Origin: Bolinopsis microptera
Taxonomy: Eukaryota > Ctenophora > Tentaculata > Lobata > Bolinopsidae
DNA length: 64,000 bases
NCBI RefSeq assembly: GCF_026151205.1
Contig: NC_087075.1
Location: 7,830,858-7,894,857 of the forward strand
Direction of reading: 5' to 3'
Positions 437 through 61,309 of this stretch are shown in pieces. The translations under genes were made by a program, and so were the position numbers. Within the stretch, counting starts at the first letter, position 1; each line of letters starts with the position of its first letter. The notes below the pieces were generated by a model, which was not told where the DNA came from, did not search any database, and saw nothing but the letters and a program-made list of their open reading frames with translations.

Positions 437-591
437 AATACTGCTGAATACTGACATAACACTCCTACCATCAGTTTTATTTTTACAGTACGACATCCAG
501 ACAAATACAACCTGTTTTTATTCTGTTTTTTAGTTTAAACACAACTTTTCAACTTTTATTCATTCCATTGTGAATTAATAAGATTCACAAG

Positions 592-3567
592 ATGACAAAT
601 TTTAATAATGCAGCTGATAGGTTTCACAACCTCTGCATTGGTCATTGTAACATTCAAGGAGGGCTTCTCAATTTAGCTAAAAGTAATGAACTTTCCCAAC
701 TTATTAGAGATCATAAATTAGACATACTTTCCCTAAATGAGATGAATCTTAATGATACTATTGACACAGACACCATAAATATTCCTTCCTCCTTCAACCT
801 TATGCGATGCGACAGGCCAAACAGTTCTAGGGGTGGTTGTGGCTTAATGATAAACAAAAAACTAGCTTACACAGAATTAGTTATGGATAGTAAGCTTGAT
901 AACATTGAAGCATTATGGGTGAAGCTTAAGAATAGCAAGATCAATGTTTGCTGCTTCTATCGCTCTGGAAATTATTGCAGTGTTGATAACTTTATTGAAT
1001 ACATTCATTTTTGCATGAAAAAATTGAATGGGAAAAAGGTTATCTGGATTGGGGATATAAACATTGACCAGAATAATATCTCATCCACCCAGTACAAAAA
1101 ATTAGATATGACCTTGAGATGTTACAATCTAGTTCAAACCATTCAAGGGATAACTAGAGTTGCTAAACGTGGAGACAATGTTACCCAGACTACTATTGAT
1201 GTAATATTCACTAACTGTTATGCAGATTTTGTTCAATCTTCTGTTCTTGATGAACGTATTGGAGATCATCAAGCCATTATGTGTGAGATAGATTGTAAAG
1301 TACCTATAGCTCCTAAATTTGAGAAGGTTGAAATTAGAAATCATTGTAAACGTAATGTTAAACAATTCTTAGACTATCTAGATACCTGTTCTGATTACAG
1401 TCCACTATTGGAAAGTACAGATGTTGAAGCTATCACTGCTGGCCTTTGTCATCATATTGAACAGGCATATGCAACCTTCTCCCCTTGCAAGACCATAGAA
1501 AGGCATGAAAAGTTCATACATAAACCTTCTACTGAACTTTTAAATGCCATTAATCATACACATTTTCTTCTAAAGAAATTCCGTAAAAAGAAGGATAAGA
1601 GAGACAATGGAAATTGCAATAAATGTGGTACATGTAGCAAATGTATAAAGTGTAATGAGGCCTGGGATTGCTACAAGATTCAGAGAAATATTAGAAATAA
1701 ATTAGCTAAAACCTGCAAAAAGGCTAATGTAATCGATGATCTACAAGTTAAAAGTGCCAAGAATGATCTTAAAGGGATATGGAAAACTGTCAAACTGGCA
1801 TCAAATATGACCCCTGGTACAACTAATTGTCAAACTATCAATGAGAATGATCCTGAGCTATTTAACTTTCATTTTGCAAATGTTGGATCAAGATTACAAA
1901 ATCAGGCCCCCAATATTGAAAGAGTTAGTTTTACTGATTTTTTACCTCCTAGAACTTCTAATATCTCATTTGATAGATTCCAAGAAATAAATGAAACTGA
2001 TATCCTAATGTATGTCGAAACGCTCAAGAATGACAAGGCCTCATATGACAATGTGCCTCTATTTTTACTTAAGCAAGCTGTACCACACATAGTTGAGCCA
2101 CTGACCCACATTGTCAATCTGAGCCTTAATACAGGTGTTGTACCAACCCTTTGTAAAAAAGCTAGAGTAACTCCCATCCATAAGGCAGGAATGAAAGATG
2201 ATCCTAATAATTACAGGCCAATATCCATCCTTCCACTTGTAGGAAAACTTATAGAATACTTTGTCGGCAAGCAACTCACTGATTACATGGAAGAGAACAA
2301 ACTTTTCATCCGGCATCAATATGGCTTTCGGAAAAATCACTCCACAACTTATCTGATGTACGATCTGATGGACGAAATATATATGAGTAAATCTAAGTCT
2401 TATAAACCAGGAATCATCTTTCTTGATCTTAAGAAGGCCTTTGACACAGTGAATCATGAAATATTGCTTCAAAAATTGGCATATTATGGAATTGGTGGCA
2501 TTGCTTTAACCTGGTTTAAGAACTTCTTATCTTGTAGATATCAATGCACTAGGATCAATGGCAATCTAAGCTCATTTTTAGAAGTTCTGAGTGGTGTACC
2601 ACAAGGAAGCATCATTGGGCCTATATTATTTAGTATCTTCATAAATGACATCATTTATGCCTGTAACCTATCTAAGCCCTTTCTATTTGCAGATGATGGT
2701 GCACTATTCTTTGATCAAACCTGCAGAAGCACATTTATAAACATGAAAATAGAACTTATGACAATCTTTAAATGGCTCAGTGTTAATAAATTATCACTCA
2801 ATGAAAAGAAGACTGAATTCCTATTGTTTGATTCTGTTGACCAACATGATGAAATAACCATTGATTGTAATGAGGTAACTTTCACAATCAAGGAGTGCAA
2901 AGAGACAAAATATCTTGGCCTCATTCTAGATAGTAAATTAAACTTCAAAAGCCATGTAGATTATATTATTAGGAAGGTCATGAAGAGAATTGGTGCCATG
3001 TATAGAAGTAAAGCACTGCTACCCATTAAATATAGGAAAATGTTTGCCAATGCACTCATGTTGCCACAATTCGATTATTTAGACACGATCTATTGTAGAG
3101 CTGGCAAGACAAAACTTGCTGAACTTGACACTCTGTACAAAAAGGTAGCCAAAATAGCTCTCAACGTTCCAAAAACAGAGAGCAGCCTTAATGTTTATAG
3201 AGACATGAAATGGTTACCACTCCATCTTAGACGACAACTCCATCTGTCAAATTATATGTTTAGAATCATCCATGACAATTGTCCTACAAACTTTATGAAC
3301 AAATTTAGTTACATATCAGGAGGTAGTAGGAGCGGCGAAAGCTGCAACCTTTATGTCAATAGATCAACATCACATAAAAACTTTCAATACTTGGGGGCAA
3401 AATGTTGGAATAATGTTCCAACAGATCTACGAAATCTGCCCGATGTTAAAAGCTTTAGTGATTCGTATAAGAAACAGCTACTATCATCTATAACAACAGA
3501 CCCTAATTATACCGTCGACAATTCATATGACAAATTTTACACTGCAATCATAGTCGCCGATAACTAA
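592..3567 (+). CDS. LINE-A ORF2: endonuclease-reverse transcriptase
   Basis: Intact 991-residue replication protein of a CR1/L2-group LINE. The N-terminal AP-type endonuclease shows HCNIQG (Asn ~20), SLNE (Glu 50), GDINID, TIDVIF and the GDHQ block. The RT domain shows NYRPISILP, FLDLKKAFDTVNH (~610), GVPQGS (~668), FADD (~700, catalytic) and KYLGLILD, followed by the usual C-terminal extension. Between endonuclease and RT, residues ~341-361 hold a cysteine cluster with five Cys at three-residue spacing (CNKCGTCSKCIKC), then Trp and another Cys; it looks metal-binding and is not standard for the family. The ATG at 592 lies just before the endonuclease. No stop or frameshift is seen, so the copy may be young or active. 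Confidence 0.93.
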   Translation: MTNFNNAADRFHNLCIGHCNIQGGLLNLAKSNELSQLIRDHKLDILSLNEMNLNDTIDTDTINIPSSFNLMRCDRPNSSRGGCGLMINKKLAYTELVMDSKLDNIEALWVKLKNSKINVCCFYRSGNYCSVDNFIEYIHFCMKKLNGKKVIWIGDINIDQNNISSTQYKKLDMTLRCYNLVQTIQGITRVAKRGDNVTQTTIDVIFTNCYADFVQSSVLDERIGDHQAIMCEIDCKVPIAPKFEKVEIRNHCKRNVKQFLDYLDTCSDYSPLLESTDVEAITAGLCHHIEQAYATFSPCKTIERHEKFIHKPSTELLNAINHTHFLLKKFRKKKDKRDNGNCNKCGTCSKCIKCNEAWDCYKIQRNIRNKLAKTCKKANVIDDLQVKSAKNDLKGIWKTVKLASNMTPGTTNCQTINENDPELFNFHFANVGSRLQNQAPNIERVSFTDFLPPRTSNISFDRFQEINETDILMYVETLKNDKASYDNVPLFLLKQAVPHIVEPLTHIVNLSLNTGVVPTLCKKARVTPIHKAGMKDDPNNYRPISILPLVGKLIEYFVGKQLTDYMEENKLFIRHQYGFRKNHSTTYLMYDLMDEIYMSKSKSYKPGIIFLDLKKAFDTVNHEILLQKLAYYGIGGIALTWFKNFLSCRYQCTRINGNLSSFLEVLSGVPQGSIIGPILFSIFINDIIYACNLSKPFLFADDGALFFDQTCRSTFINMKIELMTIFKWLSVNKLSLNEKKTEFLLFDSVDQHDEITIDCNEVTFTIKECKETKYLGLILDSKLNFKSHVDYIIRKVMKRIGAMYRSKALLPIKYRKMFANALMLPQFDYLDTIYCRAGKTKLAELDTLYKKVAKIALNVPKTESSLNVYRDMKWLPLHLRRQLHLSNYMFRIIHDNCPTNFMNKFSYISGGSRSGESCNLYVNRSTSHKNFQYLGAKCWNNVPTDLRNLPDVKSFSDSYKKQLLSSITTDPNYTVDNSYDKFYTAIIVADN

Positions 3568-4439: not shown

Positions 4440-4454
4440 CCATTCATTCTGTAT

Positions 4455-5906
4455 GTGCACGAAAATTTATTTCAATCAAACTGTGATGAAACTTGCAATG
4501 TCAGTGCGCCCACGGTTTTTACTGCTCACCTGTCTCATGCTGTGAACAACACTTCATCTTATGCTAAACGATTTGGTCGCTTTCTATTTATCTGTAATGA
4601 TTGTAGTACTGCTGAGGAGGAAAAGAGGGCTGCTACTACCGTAGATCGGGTAGGATTGTTAGATAATAAAATAGATGCCATAAATTTGGAGTTCAGGGAA
4701 GAGATGTCTGAACTTAAAACCTTGCTGAAGGAACAACTGTCCCAGAAACCTGAGAGAGCTCAAGAGCGATCCTCAGATCAGGTTGATTTTATGAAACAAT
4801 TTGCTGAACAGTTTTCATCTTTAAAAGAAGACCTCACGAAAAATATCAATGATGTTATTGACAATAAAGTAAACACTGTTGTAACAAAATCCGGTACTGA
4901 TTCTCATAAAAAGGACGTTCTCTATTCCAGCTTGTTTACCGACTCAAACAGTTCCACACCATCTGCTCAACCACCACATGTTCCAATTGCTCCAACACGT
5001 ACACAACCTTCATCACCCGAGATTCTAATTCTGTCCCCGAAAGAAGAACAATCGGTAAATGCTGCAACAATGACGAATGTGAAAAAATTTGCTACTGATA
5101 AATTAAAGAGCAGTCAAGTAGTATTTCTCAGATGTAATGAAAACAACAAGAAAGTTTCAATTGGCTTCCCTAATGCTGAAATTCGTGATAAGGCTACTTC
5201 ACTTCTCAATGATGGAAATACCTTAGATTCGTATGGATATCAGTCTAAGAATGGCAACAAAATGCTGCCAAAAGTTACTATTTATGGTGTTTCTTCTGAA
5301 GTTCTTGACGATATAGACACTACAGCTGTAGGGAATGATGCCGATAAACTTAGGGATCTTGAAAAGAACCACTTAGTCGCCCAAATTGTGGAGAAAAACT
5401 CGTCCATCAAAGATTTGTATGAAGCAGGGCACACTATCAGTATTGTCTATCTCAATAAGATAAAACGTTTGACCAACGATAAGCAGGAACGCACAGAGCT
5501 CACTATTGGAATCAAACTATCACCATCTGTCTATAGAGTCCTCTTTAACCAACAACAAGGATCTCTCTATTTAGGTAGTCGCAGATACAAAGTAACTGAT
5601 CGCTTCTACATCAAACAGTGTTATCATTGTCAAATGATTGGACACACTTCTGTTGACTGTAATGAAGTCAAAACAAATAAACATCCTACCTGCATGTACT
5701 GTATGGGAAGTCACCGGTCTTCAGCATGCCAATTTAAGCAGAAGAAGGACAAACATGCCTGTGCTCGATGTCTGGCTTCAACACACACTAATGATGCCGA
5801 GAATTCAAGAATACATAATGCGGCAGCTTACGATTGTCCTGTGTTGGTAAGAGAAACTAAACGTATTGCTGCTAACACTGACTTTATTTCAAAAAACGTA
5901 ATGTGA
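4455..5906 (+). CDS. LINE-B ORF1: coiled-coil, CCHC zinc-knuckle nucleic-acid-binding protein
   Basis: The frame is open from 4440; the start is uncertain because the first in-frame ATG is near 4704, inside the coiled coil, and the upstream part opens with a GTG. The N-terminal ~55 residues contain scattered Cys/His (CDETC, CNDC) like the second half of a PHD-type finger. A charged coiled coil follows (residues ~65-145), then a Ser/Pro-rich linker, a central domain, and from ~386 three knuckles: CYHCQMIGHTSVDC (CX2CX4HX4C), CMYC...C and CARC...C. This gag-like layout is typical of LINE ORF1 proteins that bind element RNA. The ORF ends in AACGTAATGTGA and overlaps the ORF2 frame; see the slippery site at 5891. 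Confidence 0.85.
   Translation: MHENLFQSNCDETCNVSAPTVFTAHLSHAVNNTSSYAKRFGRFLFICNDCSTAEEEKRAATTVDRVGLLDNKIDAINLEFREEMSELKTLLKEQLSQKPERAQERSSDQVDFMKQFAEQFSSLKEDLTKNINDVIDNKVNTVVTKSGTDSHKKDVLYSSLFTDSNSSTPSAQPPHVPIAPTRTQPSSPEILILSPKEEQSVNAATMTNVKKFATDKLKSSQVVFLRCNENNKKVSIGFPNAEIRDKATSLLNDGNTLDSYGYQSKNGNKMLPKVTIYGVSSEVLDDIDTTAVGNDADKLRDLEKNHLVAQIVEKNSSIKDLYEAGHTISIVYLNKIKRLTNDKQERTELTIGIKLSPSVYRVLFNQQQGSLYLGSRRYKVTDRFYIKQCYHCQMIGHTSVDCNEVKTNKHPTCMYCMGSHRSSACQFKQKKDKHACARCLASTHTNDAENSRIHNAAAYDCPVLVRETKRIAANTDFISKNVM
5891..5897 (+). promoter_or_regulatory. Putative -1 ribosomal frameshift site (A_AAA_AAC)
   Basis: The heptamer A AAA AAC sits in the exact ORF1 phase (codons AAA 5892-5894 and AAC 5895-5897), matching the X_XXY_YYZ rule. 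A one-base slip back continues directly into the ORF2 frame (CGT AAT GTG AAA...). The ORF2 frame is closed by TGA at 5879, and the ORF1 stop is at 5904-5906, so the usable overlap is only 5882-5906 and contains this motif. ORF2 has no AUG before its endonuclease Asn. Only weak short stems are visible downstream by eye, so a stimulatory structure is unproven. Confidence 0.65.
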
Positions 5907-8854
5907 AATTAGGTGCTAATCGACAGAAATCACAGCTTTCTATTGGTTGTTTCAACGCAAGGTCTCTATGCAACAAAACTTGTGGCGTACTAGAAATGCT
6001 TAAAGATAACTCGATTTCTATCTGTTGTATCACGGAAACTTGGCTAAAAACTAATGATCGGGCAAAGTTTGCCGAAATCCGTGATTTTGGGTTCGATATT
6101 ATCAGTGCCCCTCGAAGAGGTAGGGGAGGTGGTGTTGGTTTTCTCTTCAACCCCAAAATGATATCGCCTGTACGCAATGATGTTACTAAATATTCATCTT
6201 TTGAAGTACTTGAATGTGTCATTAAAACTGCTGGTGAGATTATCAGGCTATGTGTAGTTTATCGCAGCACTCAGGCCAAAGCGAAATATGATGAAACAAA
6301 AATATCTAAGTTTATGGATGACTTTGATGGATACCTGGACAATCTTCTGCTTAAAACTGGATCTCCAATTATTTGTGGTGACTTTAATTTCCATGTTGAA
6401 GACATATACAATAATGCTGCCCAGAACTTTATTGCTCTTTGTGAGAGCAAAGGCTTCCTTCAGCATGTCGACTCTCCTACTCACATCTCCGGCGGGACAC
6501 TGGACTTGTTATTTACTCTAGGCTGTGTAAGTGACTCATTGTCTGTAACAGATATGATGGTAGAGACAAGCACTGGAACCAGCTCTGATCACTATCTATT
6601 AAGTTTTCAGGTCCCAGTCACATTCGATCTTCATAAAGCTCGTACATATGAAAAAAAAGATGTCAGAGAGCTAAGCAAAATTGACATCGATAAGTTCAGG
6701 GAAGATCTGTTTTGTTCAGAGCTTAACCTTTCTGAATATCAATCCTTAGACGAGGCTGTGAACCTTTATCAAAATGTCCTTGAACAGGTGCTAGACAAAC
6801 ATGCCCCACTTATTACGAAACGATTTACTGCTGAAAAGTCTGATTTTTGGGATAATAAATGTCAAATTGCTGTCAGAGAGAGGAGAAGGGCAAAACGAAA
6901 AGCCAAAAAGTATCCAGAGAATGATGAGTTTAAAACTACTCATTTTGAAAAATGTGTTGACGCAGAAATCACTATCAATCGAGCTAGGGATGGCTACTAT
7001 GATAAACAGCTCAGTTCTTGCAAAGGAGACTCGAAAGGGACCTATAAAGTCATAAATAAACTTTTAGATAAGGAATATGGCTCCAACAAATTGCCAAATG
7101 GTGAAGATATCGAAGTGGCTGCCAAACTCAAGACTTTCTTCGATCAAAAAGTAAAGACCATTTACTCTAATATTGAGAAGGAAATTCAAAACACTTCCCT
7201 AAACGGTCAAGGTACCAAGGACTCTACTTCGATAGATAATGCAAAGTGTAGACTTAATCAGTTTAAGGAAGTCTCATTATCAGATCTTGAAACCTTAATT
7301 AAGAGTCTTCCCAATAAATCAAGCGTACTCGATGTCATACCAATGTGGCTCTTCAAGAACTGCTTACCCGAGCTTCTCCCAATCATCCATTACATCGTGA
7401 ATGAATCACTAAGAGTCGGAAAGTTTCCATCTGCCCTAAAAGAAGCATCTATTAGGCCTGGACTCAAGAAACCTACCTTAGATGTTGATGAGCTGAAAAA
7501 CTATCGACCGATTAGCAATCTAACTTATCTGTCCAAAATACTAGAAAAAGTAGTTCATTGCCAATTAAATGAATATGCTGATGTCAACAACCTGTTTTCC
7601 CCATATCAATCAGGCTATAGAAAATTCCATAGTTGTGAAACTGCAGTTACCAAAATACATAATGATATTCTAATGATGATTGACAGCAAATCGAATGTTG
7701 TGCTTCTACTCTTAGATCTATCAGCTGCTTTCGACACCATAAACCATAACCTCCTTCTTACGAAACTCAAGAATGCGTATGGTATTACAGAACTAGCACT
7801 CAGCTGGTTACAATGTTACCTTAATAATCGCACATTCAAGGTTAAAGTAAAAAAAGCCACATCTTCTGAAGGCTATCTGGATATTGGTGTACCTCAAGGA
7901 TCCATTTTAGGACCACTACTGTTCATATTGTATACCAGAGATCTTGAAGAAATTGTCACAAAATATGGTTTCTCGATACATTTGTATGCAGATGACACAC
8001 AGGTGTACTTTACTTTTGATGTTCACAGTTCTAATCCTGATTTAACAGCTGTGAAAAATTGCTTTCTGGAGATAAAGCAATGGATGACAGTTAATTTCCT
8101 AAAACTGAATGATGAAAAAACAGAGTTCATTGATATAGGTCCATATGTCAGCCCAATCCAGACAATGGATTTAGGAGACCTCTCAATCTGCCCTGTTAGC
8201 AAGGCCAAGAACCTGGGATTCCTTTTCGATCACCAAATGAATCTGGACTCTCAAATAAATGCTGTCTCCAAAGTATGTTATTTGAATCAAAGGGACTTAG
8301 CAAGAATCGGTTCGAAGCTTTCCCATGACCTAAAAGTTCAGTTAGTTCACTCCAATATCCTCTGTTTCATAGACTACTGCAACTCAGTCTATTATGGTAT
8401 AACAGAAAAGAATCTCCATAAGCTACAAAAGATACAGAACAATGCTGCTAGATTTATCTTTGGTCTTTACGGAAAAAAGATACGTGAACCTATCATGCCT
8501 TACCTCAAAAAGCTCCACTTTCTGCCTGTTCGGTTCAGAATTAAGTTCAAAATATCACTTCTGGTCTTCAAGTGTCTTAATAACATAGCCCCTCAGTACT
8601 TACAAGGACACGTCAATCTAAGGGAAGTACGAAGACGAAGTTCCAGACTAGATGATGACTTTTATTTGTTGAAAGTTCCTCCTGCTCCTCATTTCAGACG
8701 AACAGATGCTGCATTTATGTTTTGTGGACCAAAAATTTGGAATGAACTACCCTACTCAGTGAGATCATTATCATCTGTAGAATGTTTTAAAAATGCCCTA
8801 AAGACGTTTTATTTCCAACGAGCTTTTGATAATATTTCTAATATTTGTCCATAA
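5903..8854 (+). CDS. LINE-B ORF2: endonuclease-reverse transcriptase
   Basis: Intact 983-residue EN-RT of the CR1/L2 group, of a lineage different from LINE-A. Endonuclease motifs: CFNARS (Asn 18), CITETWL (Glu ~45), GRGGGVGF, CGDFNFHV, TLDLLF and SSDHYLL. RT motifs: NYRPISNLTYLSK, LLLLDLSAAFDTINH (~610), GVPQGSILGPLLF, LYADDTQVYF (catalytic, ~695) and KAKNLGFLFD. The C-terminus carries the LPVRFRIKFK...PKIWNELP block common in L2-like elements. The first in-frame ATG is too far in (LEML), beyond the first catalytic Asn, so translation probably enters by -1 frameshifting from ORF1; position 5903 is a GTG and only marks the overlap. No internal stop is present. Confidence 0.92.
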   Translation: MKLGANRQKSQLSIGCFNARSLCNKTCGVLEMLKDNSISICCITETWLKTNDRAKFAEIRDFGFDIISAPRRGRGGGVGFLFNPKMISPVRNDVTKYSSFEVLECVIKTAGEIIRLCVVYRSTQAKAKYDETKISKFMDDFDGYLDNLLLKTGSPIICGDFNFHVEDIYNNAAQNFIALCESKGFLQHVDSPTHISGGTLDLLFTLGCVSDSLSVTDMMVETSTGTSSDHYLLSFQVPVTFDLHKARTYEKKDVRELSKIDIDKFREDLFCSELNLSEYQSLDEAVNLYQNVLEQVLDKHAPLITKRFTAEKSDFWDNKCQIAVRERRRAKRKAKKYPENDEFKTTHFEKCVDAEITINRARDGYYDKQLSSCKGDSKGTYKVINKLLDKEYGSNKLPNGEDIEVAAKLKTFFDQKVKTIYSNIEKEIQNTSLNGQGTKDSTSIDNAKCRLNQFKEVSLSDLETLIKSLPNKSSVLDVIPMWLFKNCLPELLPIIHYIVNESLRVGKFPSALKEASIRPGLKKPTLDVDELKNYRPISNLTYLSKILEKVVHCQLNEYADVNNLFSPYQSGYRKFHSCETAVTKIHNDILMMIDSKSNVVLLLLDLSAAFDTINHNLLLTKLKNAYGITELALSWLQCYLNNRTFKVKVKKATSSEGYLDIGVPQGSILGPLLFILYTRDLEEIVTKYGFSIHLYADDTQVYFTFDVHSSNPDLTAVKNCFLEIKQWMTVNFLKLNDEKTEFIDIGPYVSPIQTMDLGDLSICPVSKAKNLGFLFDHQMNLDSQINAVSKVCYLNQRDLARIGSKLSHDLKVQLVHSNILCFIDYCNSVYYGITEKNLHKLQKIQNNAARFIFGLYGKKIREPIMPYLKKLHFLPVRFRIKFKISLLVFKCLNNIAPQYLQGHVNLREVRRRSSRLDDDFYLLKVPPAPHFRRTDAAFMFCGPKIWNELPYSVRSLSSVECFKNALKTFYFQRAFDNISNICP

Positions 8855-49549: not shown

Positions 49550-52500
49550 CAAGGATACAAGGATACAAGGATACAAAAGTGATAATTATTTTATTGAATT
49601 CACAATAGTTATAATTCTGAAATAATTTAAGGTTACACAATTCTAGTTATTTACAAATGTGTAGGGATAAAATAGAAATGTTTTATAATACTATTTTTGA
49701 GGTCCTATAGCATTATGCATTGGCCAGTATTTGAGTGGAAATCTGGGCTCTTATAGTAGGCTGTAAAATTTTCGTTCACAGAGAGAATTGAATGGATTGC
49801 TCTTGCTGTGGCAGTAAATTTTGTAGGGTCTAGTGTTTTATCGGATAGCAAACCGGCTAGGTCAGTAATATTTTTGGGATGGAAGTTAAATTTTTCTCTA
49901 ATTGAGGAGTAGAGTAAACAGTCAGTTAGAACATGAATTTCGTCCTCAATAGGCTTAAGCCCCTTGCTGAAAAAGCAAAAAGTGCACCATCGATGTTCTC
50001 TTGGTACTAGGGGGGTTTCGTAACGGCCCCTCTCAATGTAAAGATTGTGGCAGCTAATACGAAACCTTGTTAAGCTTTTCCGAGCATCGGGGATCTTAAC
50101 CACTCCTAAGTATGTTTCTGGTTCAAAATCATGTTTAATTTGATTGTAGAATTCTAATTTAGGTGAGGATGCCTTGGCAGATTTCCAGGTATCCACAAAT
50201 TCTTCCCTCATGTTGTGACTGATTTGGGTAGAGAGCTTGGATTTTGAAGAGGATGAGTGAGGGAAGTTATATTTGGTGAGAAGATTAGAGATGTTGGTGT
50301 ACCAAGGAAGGCCCAGCATAATCTGCTCGTGAAATGCAGCGGAGAGAAGTTCATTTTCAGTGCTTTCAAGGCGACTATAGAAATCTATTGCAAGTTTGCA
50401 GGCTTCAAAGAAGAGGGGGTGGCGCCCACTTTCGCCCCAGCAGCCTATATTTGATGCTTTTGAATGGACAGACAAGGACCACTTGATAAACTTAAGGTGG
50501 AATCTTTCATAGTGGTCTTGTGAGATGTACCTGAGAGTATGCTGGGGGTTGGCTTTGCTATCTGTTTTGGAGAGGTATCTCATGGTTTTTGAGTGAGGAC
50601 ATAAGATTTGGCAGCCATAGAGCAGTATCGGTTTTATTAGAGAGTCAAATAGAATGTTTAGAGAACGGTGAGAGAGGGCATCTTTGACGATATTGCCTTT
50701 GAGGCCATAGAGAGCACGGAGAGCCTTGGCCCTCAGTTCAGTATTTGCTGCTGTAAAAGATCCATTTCTGTGGAATATAATGCCAAGATAGCAGTATTTT
50801 TCGGTGTGTTGGATGGGCTGGCCTCCCAAAATGAATGTTTCATAGGATTGTTTTCTTTTAGGAGGGCAGAATATGAGAATCTTGGTTTTTTAATGTTTAC
50901 TTCAAGGCCCATAGAGTTACAGAAGTCGAATAGGATGTTTATATTGTCTTGCAAGGCCTTGGGACTTAGGGCAAGTAGGACAAGATCGTCAGCCCAGAGC
51001 AGATGTGATATTAGGACGTCAGCTAGAATAGGATAATCACCAACAGATTTCAGGAGAGATGACAAGTCGTTGATATAGATTTTAAAAAGGTCCGGTGATA
51101 GGGGGTGTCCCTGCTCTGTTCCTTGTCAATATTAGGGGACAAGAGTTTGGAGATTTTTATATGAGCTATTGAGTTTCTATACATATCACTTAGGCAATTG
51201 AAGAAGTTTCCAGTTATTCCAAGGCATGTGATTTTGTGCAGAAGGAGGTCCCTACATACAGTGTCAAAGGCCTTTCTTAGATCAACAAAGCATGCATAGA
51301 GGCGAGCTTTCTTAACCTTGGTATATTTGTCAATGACTGTCTTAAGGGTAAAAACGTGGTCATTTGTTTGAGCACCCTTCGAGAACCCTAGTTGTTCTTT
51401 TGGGTCAGGGCAGTAGAGCTTTTTGAAGTGCAGGAGACGCTCAAGTAAGATGCTAGAAAACAGTTTACCCATACAGCTACCAACAGCTATTGCTCTGTAG
51501 TTGTCCGGGCTGAAATGGTTGCCAGACTTGTAAATAGGTGTAAGGATGATAGTGATGCTATGGACAGTAACCTGAGACCAGTGAGTGATCGAATGTTTTG
51601 AGGATGGCTTTGATACAAAGCAGAGTTAGGCTCTGAAGCATCTCGTTGGATATCAAGTCGTTTGAGCAACTTTTACCTTTTTTGAGATTTTTGATGGCAG
51701 AGGTCACTTCAGATTCTGACATGAGCTTATTTAGGATATCCAGATCTGGTGGTTCAGGGTAATGTTTGTGATTGTGGTGAGTGAGATCTGGCTCCTGGTC
51801 TGGTTTTTTATAAAGGGATGCAAAGAAGTCATGGAAGCTAGCTAAATCAAATTTGTCAAGTAAGGGGCTAGTGTCATGTTCTTGTTTGAGCCGTTTAAAT
51901 TTTTTCCAGTCGAGTATGTGACCTTCTTCTATAGCTTCATTTAGCTTCTTAAGGAAAGCTACTTTCTTACTGTTTACAAAATTGCTATGCTTGTTGCGTT
52001 GCTTAAAGTATTCTCGTCTGAGGATACTGTTACAGTGCTTACTACCAAGCCGATTTGCTAGCCTATTAAGGTTCCGCCGCGAGGAGTTGACTTGTGGGTC
52101 AAACCATTTTTTACGGGCAGAATTTTTGGGAGGCTTTTTCACTTTTAGGGCTATATCAGCAGCACTGTGGAGACATTTTATGACTGCATCGTTCAGTTCG
52201 TGATTGCCCTCCAGAGTACTGCTAAATTCATTTGTCACAATGCTTTCCAGATTGTTGATAATTTCGGGCGAGGTAAGGGCTTTTTTAAATAGTGAATGGG
52301 AGGTGTTGCTGTCCCACTTATAGCCACAAGGAAAGTTAGAAAAGTCTGGGAGCTGGAAGTTTGCGACAAATGGTTCAAATGTAGTGAGTTTCAAGACTAA
52401 TGGACAATGATCAGAGTATGATGTAAACTCTTTTACTTGGAGAGAGTTTACATGATCTCTTGCCCATGAGGTGATTACAAAATAGTCAACCACACTGCTT

Positions 52501-52785
52501 CCATTGTATTTGTGACAGGTCATTTTTCCAGTGGTGTCCCCAAGGGTACGACCATTGAGAATTTTGAGTTGGTTATTGATAACCATGTCAAGGAAGTGTT
52601 GGCAGTGGGGTTCAGATATTGTAAGGTCAGAATTGTTTCTTGGTTCTTCTATGTCGTGCTCGAGTCCAATGTCGTTATAGATGTCATGGATGGCAGGTGC
52701 ATAACAGGAAAGGATATAGTCTGGGAGTTTTCCAGTTCTTGCATTTGCATCGCCACACATAATAACTTCTCCCTTTTGACGTAGT
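49550..52785 (-). pseudogene. LINE-C, 5'-truncated and frameshifted EN-RT
   Basis: The open pieces, read 5' to 3', are 52760-51558, ~51560-51050, 51065-50733 and 50829-49705, each in a different frame, so at least three frameshifts. The start is inside the endonuclease (CGDANARTG, SSVVDYFVI, SYSDHCPLVL). RT boxes: NYRAIAVGS, FVDLRKAFDTVCRD, a damaged EQG-HPLSP, LLWADDLVLL (catalytic) and CYLGIIFHRNGSF. The Cys/His tail is CTFCFFSKG...HVLTDC. The 3' end has a short TATCCTTG tandem tail (49546-49577), as CR1-like elements do. Different lineage from LINE-A, B and D. Inactive. Confidence 0.85.
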
Positions 52786-52885
52786 CAGGAAAACAACAAT
52801 TTCAGGAAAACAACAATTTTATTTAGTATCAGTTACAGCAAACAAAAAATATATTTTATATAATATAATATAACTAGGACGAACT

Positions 52886-53132
52886 TTAGTTTAGAAATCT
52901 TGGGGGACTTGGAGTAGCAAGAGATTGACTAGAAGGTATATACCTTTTACCAAAAACGTCGAAAAGAATCCTGGGTGATACAGGATCGGAGAGTACAGAC
53001 CATAAAGTTTACGCACCCACCTTTGCCTCCAGAATTCTTGGTTGGTTGAAAATGTATGCTAACTTGGTCGTTTATACTCCAAGTCCCTTTGTTAAAAGAA
53101 GTAACATTATGTACGTCTGGAGTTAACTTCAT
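52886..53132 (-). CDS. Candidate small two-exon gene (66 residues)
   Basis: Exon 1 53017-53132, exon 2 52886-52970, with a 46-bp GT-AG intron. It begins MKLTPDVHNVTSFNKGTW, exon 2 reads ILFDVFGKRYIPSSQSLATP, and the stop is TAA. An AATAAA follows ~65 bp downstream (minus strand). Alternatively the ATG region is intronic and exon 1 starts after TTAACTCCAG at 53116, with further exons beyond LINE-D. The intron is unusually short for this window and another donor (AAAG|GTGGGT) would change the end. Family not recognised. Confidence 0.42.
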
Positions 53133-53377
53133 TCAATAATAACAATATCAATATAGTCAATATCAATATCAGACTAAACTATCAAATAAATTATCAAATA
53201 TTATTTGTTAATTCGATCTGAATAAAAATTTAGTTAAGTTAAGATATTAAATAATTAAAAACATTACAACAAGTGGTTAAAAACGCCCAAAATTGATCTG
53301 AGAGCTTTTCAGTCTATGATACAATCATGATAGTAATATTAAGTGTGTTAAGTGTGTGCTGCTGCGATAAGAATAGA

Positions 53378-56300
53378 TTACTGCAATTTAAAATTGTTTG
53401 GATTCCAAGTATCTTTTAAATCAGCAGCCTGTACTTGTAATAATAGTGCCTTGGTTCTCAATTTTATCAAGTTAATGGAAGTTTCTAGGCAATTGCTTGA
53501 GGTTAGAATTTTTTTATGAACAGTGTTCCAAAGCTTGGCTGCAGTGAACAAAAAAGTATTTGATTTATTAAGAAGAATAACCGTTAAACTCGTTGTACGG
53601 TTTGAAATGTTGATGGCCTCATAAAGGGAGTATGGGCAGTGGTACTTGATAATCTTAGAGAATTCTGAAATGCAATGGTACTTGAACAAGTTTTGAACTG
53701 TAAGAATTTTTAGTCTATTAAAAATGGGTTTTGTATGCTCCTTTTCAAAATGTTTATGGCCTAATCTTTGCATACCATATGGTCTAGTTCTTGCACATGT
53801 TGATTGTTTATCTAGATATGAGTCGAGATCACCAAAAAGGATCCTTATACAGTGCTTCTGAGTGATAAAAAGACTGTCATTGGACCGTTCCTTGATGACA
53901 ACACCCCAAACACTTATACCATAACTGAGATGTGATTCAAAAAGAGCATTATATATTTTCAAGTATAGTTCAGCAGGTATAGAGTGCCGGATTCTACAGA
54001 TTGCACCAGTCATGGTCCGCAGCTTTTTACGGATGTAGTGCATGTGGGCAATCCAGTTTAGCTTACTATCTATAACAACACCTAAGAATTTGGTATCCTT
54101 GACTTTAGTAATAACCTTACCATCGATGAATATTGATCTAGATTCATCTAGCAGGTTAGCAAATGGTCTAGTCCGCGCACAGGTGTCATCATATTCAGAG
54201 GCAGGTTTAAAATGTATGTAGCAGCATTTGGACATGTTGATATGAAGTAGATTACATTTCATGTAAATCGAGACATGTTTAAGTACTAAGTTGGCTTTTT
54301 TATATGTTGCTTCTCTAGATGGTCCTGATATGAAGATATTAGTGTCATCAGCATAAAGTACAAATTTCACCTCACTGTCTGAAAAACAGTTTACTATATC
54401 GTTCATATACAGTAGGAAGAGTAGTGGCCCAAGAATTGACCCTTGTGGTACTCCAAATTTCACGTCCATTGTTACTGATGGTACATCGTTATACATAACA
54501 TACTGCTTTCTGTTAGTCAAATAGCTTTTAAGTAAGGTAAGTGCTGAACCCCTAATACCGTAGGAATTTAACTTGCTTAGAAGAATATTGTGATCAAGGG
54601 TGTCAAAGGCTTTGCTCAAGTCAATGAATATGCCCAATACATGTTTATTGCTAGCCAGAGACTTTGTAACGGAGTCTATAGATTTGTGTAGAGCATGAGT
54701 GGTAGAATGGCCTTTTCTAAATCCAAACTGTGAGTCTGTTAGTACACCTTTAGATGTGAAGAAATTATAAAGGCGTTTGTAAATGATCTTCTCAAAGATT
54801 TTTCCAAATAAAGGTAATATTGATACAGGCCGATAATTTTCAATGCATTCCTTATTGTCTTTCTTGTAAATAGGAATAACTTTACCAGTTTTAAATATAC
54901 TTGGGAATGTACCACTTTGTATACATGTGTTGTAAAGCCTGGCCAAGGTACCAGCAATGAGCTTTGCCGATTTTTTTACAACGATTATAGGTATGTCACT
55001 CGCCTTGCCATTTTGAAAATCTCTGATGACCTCGACAATCTCGTCTTCATTAGTTTCTTCAAGGTATATGGAGTCAGATACTGAATTAGACATGAACTGA
55101 GCAAATGATTCTACTGGTTCCAGAGAAATACTATTGTTTGACAATACATTTTTATTGAGATTACTTGCAAGAGATGTAAAATATTCACAAAATTTGTTAG
55201 CAATTATTCGTCTGCAAGTAACTCTCTGGCCATCTATGACAAAATCGTCCTTACATCTAGACAAATTTTTACCACGGAGTTCATTTATAACTTCCCAAGT
55301 CTTTTTCGAATTCATGCTGTACTTCTTGAATTTTTGAGTATAGCACATAGCCTTTGCCATATTTATTGACCTTTTGAGAAACTTGTCGAATTCCTTGTAG
55401 TAGATGTGCTTGTTTGGGTCCCCGTCAGGTAGTTTTAATGTACAAGTCTTCTTCCATTCGAAATACAACCTAGCTTTCTTATCGATGGAATTAATTAGGC
55501 CCTGGGTAATCCAAGGGTTGGTTATGCTGTTACGTTTAGTGGTTCTAGGAGTTAGAAGTTTGCAAGACAAATCTATCTTTTCTTGAAATAACTGCATGAA
55601 AGAATCAAATGTGTTACAGCTGTGGTGGAACCTATCTACATCGTTTTCTATTTCAAGACAGAGCTTTTCTAAGTTAGCATTACTATAGTCGTAGTGTATA
55701 GTAATTTTGTCTGATGAATCAGGTGTTGGCACAGAGTCAGGGGAAAGTTCAATAAGAGTGAATATAGGGTGATGGTGGGAGATCTTGTCAGATATCACAC
55801 CAGAAATAAGGGTTTGATCTACTACATTGGTATGGATATTGTCAATACAGGTCCTGGAACAGCCAGGCATTTGGTGAGTTGGTACTGATATGGTTGGTAT
55901 GAAGCCGTTGTTGAATATTATTTCTTGGAATTTGTCCTCTGATGGAGATGGGTCCTTCAACATGTTTATATTGAAATCACCAAGAATATATACTTTTTTG
56001 CCATTCAGTTTTGAGAGAATACATTCATATGCTTCGTTGAACAGTTCAAGTGATGCGTTTGGGGGACGGTATATAACCCCTACAACAGTTGGGTCTTGCA
56101 AGCTAGTGATGGATACGAACAGTGATTCTATGTGTTCATTACAGAGAGATAAGCCAGGGATTTTGTTAAAGTTAAAGGAGTTGTGCAGGTAAAGACACAC
56201 TCCTGATCCTTTACCCTTGAACTGGTTTTTCTTTTGACAAAAATAACGTGATTGGTAACAGGAGGAGTATCCGTTAAGCTGATACAGAGTTCCATTTTCG

Positions 56301-56782
56301 GGATTAGTATTTGTTTCTGCAAGACCGATAACAGAGAATTTGTGGTCGATACAAGACAGCTCAACTGCAAAGTTGTCAAAGTTTGATGCATTTCCATCAA
56401 TATTTAGGAATAATTTGGACAAATATTTAGCTGAATTTTTAGGTAGGACGGTAGCATTCAACTCAGTTATGGAGAATGTTTTGCAATTTTCAAGAATCTT
56501 TGAGCTATTGTAGATAGATTCAATATAATTAACTGGCTCATCATCAATGAGGCCATTGTTTGCAAAGTGTGGAGCTTGGTAGAAAGGGTTGTACCGTACA
56601 ATATCATTGGTATCAGTGCATATTTTGCAGTATGTTGCATCTCGAAATTTGGTTATGTTATCATCAGTTTTACATTTTTTGTGCATTATTTTGTCACACA
56701 TCTGACAAATCAAAAATGGATGTCCAGCACGCACAGGTCTATCGCAACAGCAGCAGATTTCGCATATCAGTTTGACTACCAT
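53378..56782 (-). CDS. LINE-D ORF2: PHD-like finger, endonuclease, reverse transcriptase
   Basis: 1134 residues, longer than usual because of an N-terminal Cys/His module (residues 7-55: CEIC, CCC, CQMC, HKKC, CKIC), which looks like a PHD/RING-type finger. The endonuclease follows: FLNIDG (127), GLAETN (Glu 156), GVIYRPPNA, LGDFNINM (~266), CIDNIHTN and SHHHP (~336), where the usual Ser-Asp-His reads Ser-His-His. RT: NYRPVSILPLFGK, FIDLSKAFDTLDH (~720), FGVPQGSILGPLLF, LYADDTNIF (~810), TKFLGVVIDSKLNW. CR1/jockey-like. No stop inside. The start ATG overlaps the ORF1 stop (ATGGTAG). Confidence 0.93.
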   Translation of the reverse strand: MVVKLICEICCCCDRPVRAGHPFLICQMCDKIMHKKCKTDDNITKFRDATYCKICTDTNDIVRYNPFYQAPHFANNGLIDDEPVNYIESIYNSSKILENCKTFSITELNATVLPKNSAKYLSKLFLNIDGNASNFDNFAVELSCIDHKFSVIGLAETNTNPENGTLYQLNGYSSCYQSRYFCQKKNQFKGKGSGVCLYLHNSFNFNKIPGLSLCNEHIESLFVSITSLQDPTVVGVIYRPPNASLELFNEAYECILSKLNGKKVYILGDFNINMLKDPSPSEDKFQEIIFNNGFIPTISVPTHQMPGCSRTCIDNIHTNVVDQTLISGVISDKISHHHPIFTLIELSPDSVPTPDSSDKITIHYDYSNANLEKLCLEIENDVDRFHHSCNTFDSFMQLFQEKIDLSCKLLTPRTTKRNSITNPWITQGLINSIDKKARLYFEWKKTCTLKLPDGDPNKHIYYKEFDKFLKRSINMAKAMCYTQKFKKYSMNSKKTWEVINELRGKNLSRCKDDFVIDGQRVTCRRIIANKFCEYFTSLASNLNKNVLSNNSISLEPVESFAQFMSNSVSDSIYLEETNEDEIVEVIRDFQNGKASDIPIIVVKKSAKLIAGTLARLYNTCIQSGTFPSIFKTGKVIPIYKKDNKECIENYRPVSILPLFGKIFEKIIYKRLYNFFTSKGVLTDSQFGFRKGHSTTHALHKSIDSVTKSLASNKHVLGIFIDLSKAFDTLDHNILLSKLNSYGIRGSALTLLKSYLTNRKQYVMYNDVPSVTMDVKFGVPQGSILGPLLFLLYMNDIVNCFSDSEVKFVLYADDTNIFISGPSREATYKKANLVLKHVSIYMKCNLLHINMSKCCYIHFKPASEYDDTCARTRPFANLLDESRSIFIDGKVITKVKDTKFLGVVIDSKLNWIAHMHYIRKKLRTMTGAICRIRHSIPAELYLKIYNALFESHLSYGISVWGVVIKERSNDSLFITQKHCIRILFGDLDSYLDKQSTCARTRPYGMQRLGHKHFEKEHTKPIFNRLKILTVQNLFKYHCISEFSKIIKYHCPYSLYEAINISNRTTSLTVILLNKSNTFLFTAAKLWNTVHKKILTSSNCLETSINLIKLRTKALLLQVQAADLKDTWNPNNFKLQ
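56776..56782 (-). promoter_or_regulatory. ORF1 stop / ORF2 start overlap (ATGGTAG)
   Basis: ORF1 ends TCA TGG TAG; the ORF2 ATG starts inside it, one base back. Such start-stop overlaps are used for translation-coupled restart in SART1-type LINEs. No slippery heptamer is visible here. Confidence 0.6.
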
Positions 56783-58734
56783 GACTGGATTACAGATCTA
56801 CGAGAACGTGGGGAAAATCTATTTTGGGCCTTGGTAACATCACTGAACAACCTCCCATCAACGGGGCTACCTAGAATCTTATGGGCAATTGCCCGGGAGA
56901 GTTTGAAGATACCGCTTGACCCCAGGTGGATTGGGTCATCCGGCTTCTTGTACCTACAAAACTGTTTGTTCAGTAGACCCTCCTCATCGACAAAACTATC
57001 AAAATCTAAATTTCCTATTCTAGCGTTGGTATTACAGTACCCAAACAATATACTATTAAACTCCATGGCTCTCTCATTTAGCCAGGAGGACCTAGTTGGT
57101 AGGATTGGTGAAACTATAACTTTAGAGTAAGGACAAATTTCACAAATATTCGTGAGCTTCTTCGTCAGCTCATTAGCCCAGTGTTTAACATCACCCCCTC
57201 CCCTCTTAATATTATTTACACCACAGTGTACTACAACATTCTTATATCCTACACAAAGGGCAGGGTCTAACTGATCTATTGTGAAGCATTCAAGTCTTTT
57301 TCCAGGCAGTTTGTGACCGAATGTCCCTTTTCCAGCACCAAATCGGAGGAACCGGGTATTTGAGTCACCAATAATCAATGTTGCATTGCTACTGCTGCTC
57401 ACGTAGCGGAATGTTATACTGAATCTCACGTCCCTCCTTTCACTGCTCTTATCTATTCTGTGGTCCCAGAGGAACTGAGACTGCTTGCTCATGATATATA
57501 GACTGCGTCCCTCTATTGTCTCAATGACTTCCCCACTTTCTGATCCTTTCATTGAGAACTTAACTGAACACTGGCTTCCTAACGATACAGTGAAAATCGA
57601 ACTATCATGCACAAGCGAGTTCTCGTTATCCGAGTGTTTAGGGAGAAAACTGCTCTCATCATTGTACCGGTTGATCAGGCATTGATTAATAACTGTTTCA
57701 GGGCAAAGCTTCTTTATCCTTGAGGCAAGTTCAGCAAGAACTTCAGGCAGGTCTTCTGATATGGGCTTAGCAGCTTTTGCCCCGGGGTAATCATATCGTT
57801 CACCAAAGCTTATAACTCCATGCCCGTTTTCTGTGTTCTTGACAAAATCATCGTTCTGTTCAGCAAGGAAATCTAATAGCTGAGAGTTCAAGGTTGTATC
57901 AATGAATTCTGGTAAATAAGACATGATGTGCTTAGACTTAGGGTCGTCTGCACTTGAAGGCTTCTGTGCATCTAGCAGGAGCTGTTCATGGTCTGTTTCA
58001 CAGGCTGCTGGTGGCCCTATGATAAAAGGAGGCATGGGCAGGTCAGGAGTGGATACGTTTGAGGATCTGCTGTTTTTGAAACAGTTAATATCAACTTTGA
58101 GCTCAGCAAGCTTGGTGTTTATGGAGTCAAGAGTCCTAAGGTGGCTATCATTGTCTTTCAAGTTTTTAATGGATGTTTGAATATCTTCTAAGGACTTGTG
58201 TATAGAGCTTTCGTTAGAAGTAGTATGACCCATTGGAATGCTGGAGGGGGCTGACAAATAAGAAGGGGACTTAACCTCGTGGTCACATCTCTTGCCACTT
58301 ATTACAGCACAGACATTTTCTGCAAGGCCAAGCAGGGATAGTAGACCCTCTGCTAAGGTGAGTTTTTTAAGAGATGGGCAGCTCTTAACCATAGATGGCG
58401 TTATGATTGCAAATTTGTTCACATCAAGTTTTAGAATGTTACAGATGTTGAGCTTAATGATATCTACCTCTGAGCGCAGGCTCTGCGAGTGAGTCAACAG
58501 GAAGTTGTCAAGGGGGGTAGACCCTGAGAAGAAACTAAGGAGGCTGCTACAATCTTTATTTTCCTCTGATTCGTGGTATTCTGAAAGAATTATATTTTCA
58601 ACATCCTTCAGTACTTCGTCAATTTCCACCATAATGGTAGGAGTCGTGGGTGCAGGTGTAGTCTGATCCGGAACCGTAGTACTTGAAGTCTGGTCCGGAA
58701 CAGATTGAGAAGAGTCAGTGGGTGTATCGTTCAT
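56776..58734 (-). CDS. LINE-D ORF1: AlkB-like dioxygenase fused to SGNH hydrolase
   Basis: 652 residues. Residues 1-270 are Ser/Thr-rich at the start with a weak coiled coil at ~178-220. Residues ~273-446 match AlkB-family 2OG-Fe(II) dioxygenases: INRYNDE, KHSDNE (Fe ligands His367, Asp369), FTVSLGSQCSVKF, RSLYIMSKQSQFLWDH (His425), and VRFSITFR, whose Arg437 and Arg443 fit the R-x5-R that binds 2-oxoglutarate. Residues ~451-622 form an SGNH hydrolase: IIGDSN (Ser458), HCGVNN (505-508), DPIHL (Asp600, His603). All catalytic residues are present. AlkB enzymes repair or demethylate alkylated nucleic acid; a role in protecting or modifying element RNA is inference. Confidence 0.9.
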   Translation of the reverse strand: MNDTPTDSSQSVPDQTSSTTVPDQTTPAPTTPTIMVEIDEVLKDVENIILSEYHESEENKDCSSLLSFFSGSTPLDNFLLTHSQSLRSEVDIIKLNICNILKLDVNKFAIITPSMVKSCPSLKKLTLAEGLLSLLGLAENVCAVISGKRCDHEVKSPSYLSAPSSIPMGHTTSNESSIHKSLEDIQTSIKNLKDNDSHLRTLDSINTKLAELKVDINCFKNSRSSNVSTPDLPMPPFIIGPPAACETDHEQLLLDAQKPSSADDPKSKHIMSYLPEFIDTTLNSQLLDFLAEQNDDFVKNTENGHGVISFGERYDYPGAKAAKPISEDLPEVLAELASRIKKLCPETVINQCLINRYNDESSFLPKHSDNENSLVHDSSIFTVSLGSQCSVKFSMKGSESGEVIETIEGRSLYIMSKQSQFLWDHRIDKSSERRDVRFSITFRYVSSSSNATLIIGDSNTRFLRFGAGKGTFGHKLPGKRLECFTIDQLDPALCVGYKNVVVHCGVNNIKRGGGDVKHWANELTKKLTNICEICPYSKVIVSPILPTRSSWLNERAMEFNSILFGYCNTNARIGNLDFDSFVDEEGLLNKQFCRYKKPDDPIHLGSSGIFKLSRAIAHKILGSPVDGRLFSDVTKAQNRFSPRSRRSVIQSW

Positions 58735-58800
58735 GGCGTAGAAGTGGTACAGACAGAGTCAAGAGCAGAGAAGGTATTGGCAGTATAATCTGGATTCTTC

Positions 58801-59375
58801 TTGACATAGGACGAGTATGCAGGGCTAATATAATAACATACCAAAAATAGGTCAAAATCAATATATAATAAAATAAAAAAATTAGATGTATATATATAAT
58901 ATATACTATATAGATAAAAGTCCAACTCGGCGCGCGCCGCGTTTTTCAGTAAATTATTGTATTGTTTGGATTGCACGTTGTAGCGCAATGCGTTACTGTG
59001 CCGCGCCGCGCACTCACGTGCGCGGCGTACTGTATATGTGTTTGAAATTTGAATTTATTTATGAATATAACATTATGTATTGATTATTTGTGGTAAATAA
59101 AATTTTTCTTTCCTAAAAAATTTTTCTTTCCTAGTACACTCATTGCATTAAGAGGAATCAGAGGAAGATCAACGGCCCAGCATCTTGAACTGCTAGACAT
59201 TTCCTTCAACCTCATCCCCCAGAAGACGAGCTTGGAGGTCTCCTAGATTTGTTTATGTAAATTTTGATATTTTACTGTACTATTTTATGTTGTATATAAT
59301 TTTACGGACAACCCACCGCTTCGGCGGGTAGTTGACGCACCATTCACAAGCAAGAGCTACTTTGGTATACTTGCT
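58801..59375 (+). other. Spacer with GC-rich hairpin
   Basis: AT-rich sequence interrupted by CGGCGCGCGCCG at ~58927 and a perfect 10-bp stem, 59004-59013 / 59018-59027 (CGCCGCGCAC, loop TCAC). A second smaller hairpin (ACCC...GGGT around CCGCTTCGG) lies at 59311-59329. A TTTTTCTTTCCTA direct repeat is at 59102-59133. No gene seen. Confidence 0.55.
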
Positions 59376-60556: not shown

Positions 60557-60629
60557 ATTGGCTACTTTTACTACTGGGGGGGGGGGGGTGTCACGTCCGT
60601 CTATGCCCGCTTGTCTCATAGAATCCAAA

Positions 60630-60865
60630 AAGGACAGGACATAGGCGGACATAGACGGACATAGGCGGACATAGGCGGACATAGGCAGACATAGGCGGAC
60701 ATAGGCGGACATTAATGGACACCTAAATTGCTTAATAAAATGTTCAATTTTTGCTGTTATAGGGGGATCATGTTTTTTGTCCGTTCGGTACCCTATATTT
60801 TCAAAACGGACAAAAAATAGAGCGGACAAAAACGGACAAAAATGGACAAAAACGGACAAAAATGG
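60630..60865 (+). repeat. CGGACATAGG array and AAAACGGAC array
   Basis: About eight CGGACATAGG decamers at 60636-60715 and four AAAACGGACA / AAATGGACA units at 60805-60865, separated by ordinary sequence. Confidence 0.88.
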
Positions 60866-60884
60866 AAATAACATTTAGATGCTT

Positions 60885-61275
60885 CCTCCTCCTACTTTTC
60901 CTCCTCCTCCCCCTGGGTCTTCCTGATCTTCCTCAGTCCTCTTCCTCCTCCCCTCCTCAGTCCTCCTCCTACTCCTCCTCCTCGTCCTCAGTCCTCCTCA
61001 TCAGTCCTCCTCCTCCCCAGTCCTCCTCCTCCTCCTGAGTCCTCCTCCTGGGTCCTCCTCCTGGGTCCTCCTCCTCCTCTTCATCCTCCTCCTCTTCCTC
61101 CTCAGTCCTCAGTCCTCCTTAGTCCTCCTCCTCATCCTTCTCCTCAGTCCTCCATCCTCCTCCTCAGTCCTCCCCCAGTCCCCCTCCTCCTCCTCCTCCT
61201 ATTCAGTCCTCCTCCTCCTCCTCCTCCTTCTCAGTCCTCCTCAGTCCTCCTCCTCCTCCTCCTCTTCCCTCTCAG
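60885..61275 (+). repeat. ~390-bp polypyrimidine (CCT/CTC) tract
   Basis: Almost uninterrupted TCCTCC triplets with periodic AGTCC interruptions. A long homopurine-homopyrimidine run that could form triplex DNA. Confidence 0.95.
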
Positions 61276-61309
61276 TCATCCGTTTATATTCTTGAATTTT
61301 AGATGAAGG

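Follow-up and report, generated by a model that had tools for sequence, protein, structure and literature searches.

An AlkB-like dioxygenase domain fused to an SGNH hydrolase domain in ORF1 of a LINE from the ctenophore Bolinopsis microptera

We analyzed a 64,000-nucleotide stretch of the genome of the ctenophore Bolinopsis microptera (contig NC_087075.1, positions 7,830,858 to 7,894,857; hereafter, the window), which contains a long interspersed nuclear element (LINE) whose first open reading frame (ORF1) fuses an AlkB-like Fe(II)/2-oxoglutarate (2OG) dioxygenase domain to an SGNH hydrolase domain. The active sites of both domains are intact, the fusion is found in many copies and families and evolves under purifying selection, and the stop codon of ORF1 overlaps the start of the second frame (ORF2), which encodes a reverse transcriptase (RT). 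ORF1 is organized as follows (aa, amino acids):

56776..58734, minus strand: LINE ORF1 (helical N-terminal part, AlkB, SGNH), 652 aa; translation, Pfam and model
58069..58518, minus strand: N-terminal helices, aa 73-222; AlphaFold2 secondary structure
57391..57963, minus strand: AlkB-like Fe(II)/2OG dioxygenase domain, aa 258-448, with N355, Y357, H367, D369, E371, H425, R437 and R443; Pfam, alignment, profile and fold
56869..57381, minus strand: SGNH hydrolase domain, aa 452-622, with S458, N507, D600 and H603; Pfam below cut-off, alignment, profile and fold

A preliminary description of this DNA, made from the sequence alone, placed a single frame at exactly these coordinates, and the translation, with zero internal stops, bears this out. 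It also credited the frame with the complete signatures of both enzymes, and all these residues are in place, namely, H367-S-D369, W-D-H425 and R437-x5-R443 in AlkB, and S458 (GDSN), N507 (GVNN) and D600/H603 (DPIH) in SGNH. The profile search and structure prediction that it proposed as checks agree with this assignment: the 2OG-FeII_Oxy_2 family (PF13532) matches aa 311-443 well over its cut-off (E 2e-16, 61.2 bits against 31.2), and the model shows the AlkB fold (double-stranded beta helix) followed by a C-terminal part that, in structure comparison, resembles SGNH esterases. By both sequence profile and fold, the AlkB part is nearest to ALKBH2/ALKBH3, and its best sequence match in the Protein Data Bank (PDB) is ALKBH2. 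For the C-terminal part, the match to Lipase_GDSL_2 (E 0.0012, aa 480-608, 19.8 bits) falls under the cut-off of 32.9, which none of the 10 relatives scanned reached either (the best, P0085, scored 31.3). The SGNH assignment nevertheless holds because it is supported by the fold and by the family profile, which matches SGNH structures including chain 4c1b, ‘ORF1-encoded protein’ (E 1.9e-5, chain residues 7-162), presumably the ORF1 protein (ORF1p) structure of ZfL2-1 from the zebrafish L2 paper considered below. The N-terminal helices of the model are likely the self-association part of the protein.

In an alignment of 101 diverse sequences (the first row lacks Met1, so that its numbering is one lower than the ORF1 numbering used here), the Fe/2OG set (H367, D369, H425, R437, R443) is complete in 97, including that of the window, and the SGNH set is kept in 92, that is, 92 of the 94 sequences without gaps. 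Thus, loss of the Fe/2OG residues in most family members, which the preliminary description had envisaged, is not observed, and neither is restriction of the fusion to one copy. At least 68 stretches of the genome match, some being two pieces of one copy (a lower bound, with 68 of 926 candidates scored), 60 of them without an internal stop, and subfamilies are found at about 99, 86, 79 and 52% identity to the window ORF1. Among the intact ORF1 copies, HSDN and GDSN are present in 26 of 26, and WDHR in 25, the exception, WQHQ, retaining the His.

Selection was estimated for 26 of 31 loci, those with frames of at least 640 aa (thus leaving out L004, L011, L018, L027 and L030). Between the four nearer subfamilies, the ratio of nonsynonymous to synonymous substitution rates (dN/dS) is 0.065-0.196 for AlkB and 0.085-0.124 for SGNH, the AlkB ratios being rough because several of the dS values exceed 1. 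Codon bootstrap with one representative of each of the four groups gave AlkB pN/pS values between 0.20 and 0.28, the upper limits reaching 0.40 at most. Within subfamilies, the AlkB dN/dS is 0.18, 0.55, 0.03 and 0.11 for groups 1 to 4, respectively; the synonymous distance to L031, a locus with an ORF1 of the 52% family, is mostly saturated. This comparison, also among the checks proposed earlier, reveals purifying selection on the AlkB part between subfamilies.

The database relatives form 100 clusters, five of which are named as Mnemiopsis proteins (best named match, 47% identity), and a search with P0099 returned 26 proteins including the query, 25 of them with PF13532. Where these relatives carry an organism name, it is Mnemiopsis leidyi (five proteins in the first set, three in the second); the majority of matches are nameless, and other phyla are possible. 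Copy number, database clusters, selection and conserved residues together rule out a chance or one-copy fusion, and the proposed LINE ORF1 joining AlkB to SGNH stands, with the fusion and its active sites kept by selection across many families. A PHD-type Pfam match occurs besides AlkB in P0091, P0102 (Mnemiopsis leidyi) and P0101; in P0091, it precedes AlkB (aa 84-128, below cut-off).

The second frame and its junction with ORF1 comprise the following features:

53378..56782, minus strand: ORF2, 1134 aa, RT with a weakly matching endonuclease; RVT_1 6.8e-36 and PDB matches
54071..54865, minus strand: RT domain of ORF2, aa 640-904; RVT_1
55784..56341, minus strand: endonuclease domain of ORF2 (weak match); Exo_endo_phos 0.003 and Exo_endo_phos_2 0.0032, both below cut-off
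56612..56764, minus strand: Cys/His cluster at the ORF2 start, read by eye as a zinc finger of the PHD or C1 type; translation, with only C1_2 (E 3.6) in Pfam
56776..56782, minus strand: overlap of ORF1 stop and ORF2 start, ATGGTAG; sequence, with ATGA in the other examined subfamilies

The RT domain is of the LINE/R2 kind: PDB matches of ORF2 include 8c8j, an RNA-directed DNA polymerase (2.1e-15), LINE-1 ORF2p (2.5e-15) and R2 proteins (7.5e-14), along with group II intron RTs. Of the intact endonuclease-RT frame announced in the preliminary description, the open frame and the RT are upheld but the endonuclease is not firm, being below the Pfam cut-off in the window copy; several relatives among the best 120 of 7639 proteins carry Pfam endonuclease domains. 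Database names were of no help for assigning the RT to a clade, a single organism name (Mnemiopsis leidyi) occurring among these 120. The described order of the frames is correct, the ORF2 start lying within the end of ORF1. This arrangement recurs in 24 of 30 loci, 20 with the ATGA overlap and four, those of the window's subfamily, with ATGGTAG, which rules out a host gene with a transposon nearby. The overlap of stop and start suggests termination-reinitiation. In 16 of the 24 loci, ORF2 runs without interruption through the whole 1.5 kb retrieved; it spans 1169 aa in L031 and is interrupted after 91-462 aa in the other seven.

A full-text search of open-licence papers (Repbase not included) retrieved AlkB domains from RNA viruses and from a Gypsy element of plants and none described in a LINE, in line with the preliminary description, whose author knew of none. 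What seems new here is a known esterase type of ORF1 with a further catalytic domain, AlkB in a long terminal repeat (LTR) element and in RNA viruses being already known. ALKBH2 and ALKBH3, cellular repair enzymes that remove 1-methyladenosine (m1A) and 3-methylcytidine (m3C), share the fold and active-site pattern of the window AlkB but lack SGNH and are not part of a transposon. To our knowledge, the AlkB proteins of plant viruses involve neither an SGNH fusion nor reverse transcription. Those of plant Alpha- and Betaflexiviridae and Closteroviridae accompany a replicating RNA genome, for which repair of the genome RNA has been proposed (cited in PMC9289625). The same article describes an AlkB-family domain encoded by an orchid Ty3/Gypsy retrotransposon as an active RNA demethylase; that domain, however, is a separate ALKBH5-like ORF of a plant LTR element, whereas the one described here belongs to an animal LINE, is fused to SGNH and is nearest to ALKBH2/3. 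The ORF1p of zebrafish ZfL2-1 is described as having an SGNH esterase behind a coiled coil (PMC3905857), like the window ORF1, but AlkB directly precedes SGNH only in the latter, and neither AlkB nor dioxygenase is mentioned in the main text of that article. The account of type IV (esterase) ORF1 in CR1/L2 lineages (PMC4120745) matches in the esterase and in module exchange; it also describes a PHD, probably at the ORF2 start, in L2 subgroup 5, comparable to the Cys/His cluster noted above, and its main text mentions neither AlkB, dioxygenase, Mnemiopsis nor ctenophores. In fungal DNA transposons and Helitrons, a TET/JBP dioxygenase gene is reported to move among transposon lineages, as AlkB seems to do here; these enzymes are not AlkB, a name with zero occurrences in that article (PMC12730594).

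Matches to the Pfam AlkB family number at least 151 across the genome, a lower bound with 150 of 587 candidates scored. We built a tree from 26 of the 101 alignment rows, eight of the 25 new proteins from the P0099 search, the 26 loci L031-L056 and three human fragments, after removing columns with half or more gaps. In this tree, L032 groups with human ALKBH2 (ultrafast bootstrap support, UFBoot, 100), and L033 and L034 with ALKBH3 (94), so that these three look like host ALKBH2/3-like genes. Three other loci, L044, L046 and L047, have a long frame with an N-terminal AlkB domain and group with the host ALKBH2/3 (UFBoot 98), possibly representing a separate capture; at the L044 locus, the stretch L077 adds a weak SGNH-like C-terminus (GDSL 0.05) and an endonuclease-RT ORF (RVT_1 2e-28, endonuclease 1.2e-9). 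A third ORF1 type, L041 with L078, combines a divergent SGNH part (5e-8 in a profile search with a threshold of E 1e-2) with an RT ORF (2.7e-39). Outside LINEs, a single 3388-aa frame (L037 and L079, G000:C10:16874800-16884000) matches AlkB (8.3e-22), Helitron_like_N (3.2e-22) and PIF1 (6.3e-22) and, by this domain content, is a Helitron; its clade includes four other long-frame AlkB loci and the fragment L036 (UFBoot 100). The node uniting the 54 remaining transposon AlkB domains has a UFBoot of only 36, so that there may have been one capture or several; a single clean origin of all transposon AlkB domains is unsupported, and the tree does not show descent from any particular host paralogue.

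The ORFs themselves seem to be mosaics. Between groups 1 and 4, dS jumps along ORF1, from 1.62 over AlkB to 0.28 over SGNH, as is also seen in sliding windows. Moreover, L023 and L024 pair a group-4 ORF1 (78% identical to that of the window) with an ORF2 sharing 98% identity with that of L031 over the first 1.5 kb; by sequence comparison, this shared ORF2 is a recent ORF swap between AlkB-SGNH ORF1 families. Exchange thus appears to have involved both the AlkB and SGNH parts and entire ORFs. Module exchange has been described for other LINE ORF1s (PMC4120745).

With regard to function, we propose, at somewhat less than an even chance, that in this two-ORF ctenophore LINE the ORF1p, composed of helices, AlkB and SGNH, packages RNA, with AlkB clearing m1A and m3C for full-length copying. 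ORF1p would multimerize and package the element RNA; the SGNH part may, as has been suggested for ZfL2-1, have lipids or membranes as its site of action; the AlkB part would oxidatively remove m1A and m3C, which block base pairing, from the packaged RNA or single-stranded cDNA; and ORF2p would then copy the cleared template to full length. Esterase-type ORF1ps are described as forming coiled-coil multimers, and the ZfL2-1 esterase as binding lipids (PMC3905857). Both m1A and m3C are reported to hamper RTs; in work with the OTTR enzyme, which is based on R2, AlkB treatment, which removes these marks, raised the capture of most 3' tRNA halves, whereas that of full-length tRNAs changed modestly (PMC12140624). 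The preliminary description inferred that the element may strip methyl marks from its own RNA or cDNA and thereby escape host RNA surveillance. In this reading, epitranscriptomic evasion, AlkB would remove N6-methyladenosine (m6A) or a comparable regulatory mark from RNA of the element or of the host, and host readers would then not decay or sequester the transcript. We regard this as unlikely: evasion through m6A has a precedent in the orchid Gypsy elements (PMC9289625) but presumes an m6A-type mark, whereas the sequence and fold appear nearer to ALKBH2/3 than to ALKBH5/FTO, with lower Z values for ALKBH5/FTO in the fold comparison and neither of these two proteins among the PDB chains listed by the profile at E 0.01; in addition, published work credits m6A with promoting LINE-1 retrotransposition (PMC7873242, PMC9289625), so that its erasure need not help. 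Although either reading may be right, template clean-up seems to fit better than evasion because the nearest enzymes, ALKBH2/ALKBH3, act on m1A and m3C, marks that hinder reverse transcription.

Alternatively, AlkB might act on single-stranded cDNA or target DNA at integration, as ALKBH2 does on DNA; that ALKBH2 is the best PDB sequence match and that a DNA transposon, the Helitron, carries the domain too are consistent with such repair, but the domain sits in ORF1, which is thought to package RNA in the LINEs studied, and not in ORF2, and we consider this improbable. Still less probable is a non-catalytic role of the AlkB fold in nucleic acid binding or assembly: such a fold could be useful given that esterase-type ORF1ps in Repbase are described as lacking an RNA recognition motif or other known RNA-binding domains (PMC3905857), but binding alone would not need the five Fe/2OG residues that nearly all relatives keep. 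That the domain is a passenger, taken up in a single capture of an exon from a host ALKBH gene, or an artefact of an assembly joint is hardly credible: host ALKBH2/3-like genes do seem to be present, but the genomic copies, the 100 database clusters and purifying selection already contradict it. Several observations nonetheless weigh against template clean-up by AlkB. An active-site residue is absent in 4 of the 101 sequences; ALKBH8, a tRNA enzyme, is the second-best protein by sequence profile; and, in the window's own young subfamily, the AlkB dN/dS of 0.55 rests on few changes (dN 0.0021, dS 0.0039), with an SGNH dS of zero. A role on an RNA template alone does not explain AlkB in the Helitron. 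Furthermore, with the weak support of the 54-domain node and no supported sister relation of it to ALKBH2/3, the argument from closest relatives does not fix the substrate, and both the demethylation activity and the substrate are predictions.

The window copy itself has the following boundaries:

52786..58744, minus strand: LINE copy as inserted, 5959 bp, 5'-truncated, inside ORF2 of another LINE; flanks compared with L077, sister copies, tail start
52786..53377, minus strand: 3' untranslated region, with a 17-nt unit present twice in tandem at its end; sequence comparison

The flanks, 58861..58745 and 52789..50001, correspond to adjoining parts of L077 (98.3% and 98.7%), an unoccupied site, and the insertion therefore lies in ORF2 of another LINE; the ends of the insertion share at most 3 bp. 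Homology with sister copies begins at 58744, 10 nt before the ORF1 ATG, and the 3' end is common to the window copy and L031 (82% over 66 columns). The copy thus combines 5' truncation with a repeated 3' tail, both LINE hallmarks. It is not a complete element: both ORFs are open but the leader of about 0.6 kb present in sister copies is gone and, lacking it, the copy is probably not autonomous. The segments 49708-52785 and 58745-58861 (minus strand) are remains of the second AlkB-bearing LINE kind, split by the AlkB-SGNH element (98.7% identity to L077 over 50001-52789).

Among the 29 of 31 loci in which the leader distance was measured (L004 and L005 left out), 18 have a block ending in ATATAACAAATAATTTGAG (with one G variant), 578-606 nt before the ORF1 ATG (60 nt in L031), and the DNA upstream of it differs between the copies compared. 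A 24-nt part of the block occurs at 1623 places in the genome with at most one mismatch, whereas the backward control occurs at none. The spliced leader of the ctenophore Hormiphora californensis, as reported, ends in the same AATTTGAG and resembles the LINE block (PMC8527503). The natural reading is that the LINE RNA gains the leader by trans-splicing and that the copies retain it. Spliced-leader-like blocks lie both at LINE 5' ends and beside unrelated sequences (e.g., L003, L012, L031, L057-L076), as if trans-spliced RNAs had been copied back into the genome.

Elsewhere, the window opens inside another LINE (2-433 and 574-3564, plus strand) with an SGNH-like ORF1 end and a 996-aa endonuclease-RT ORF; just outside the window, some 290 bp ahead of its first position, there is an AlkB match. 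A further LINE (4440-5903 and 5882-8851, plus strand) has a 487-aa frame before the endonuclease-RT ORF; this frame (4440-5903) yielded neither a Pfam domain at E 0.01 nor a match to the AlkB or SGNH profiles, so that AlkB is not present in every LINE here. Positions 60600-61290, inspected by eye, contain simple repeats in the form of an array of the GGACATAGGC type and a long tract rich in CCT.

The LINE ORF1 proteins are poorly understood, and here a domain from a family of methyl-acting enzymes is an established part of ORF1 in diverse LINE families of a phylum that branched early among animals. That AlkB recurs within a single genome, in a Helitron and in three types of LINE ORF1, suggests that transposons benefit from it. 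It is possible, if on balance doubtful, that ctenophore AlkB is a mobile accessory module of different transposon classes (at least three LINE ORF1 kinds and a Helitron) that, in LINEs, provides built-in template repair of RT-blocking methyl groups; if so, template repair would be part of the retrotransposition machinery. The question whether methyl lesions in the template limit LINE copying, and whether the element can remove them itself, becomes directly testable, and the domain also bears on the nucleic acid methylation that ctenophores may use against transposons.

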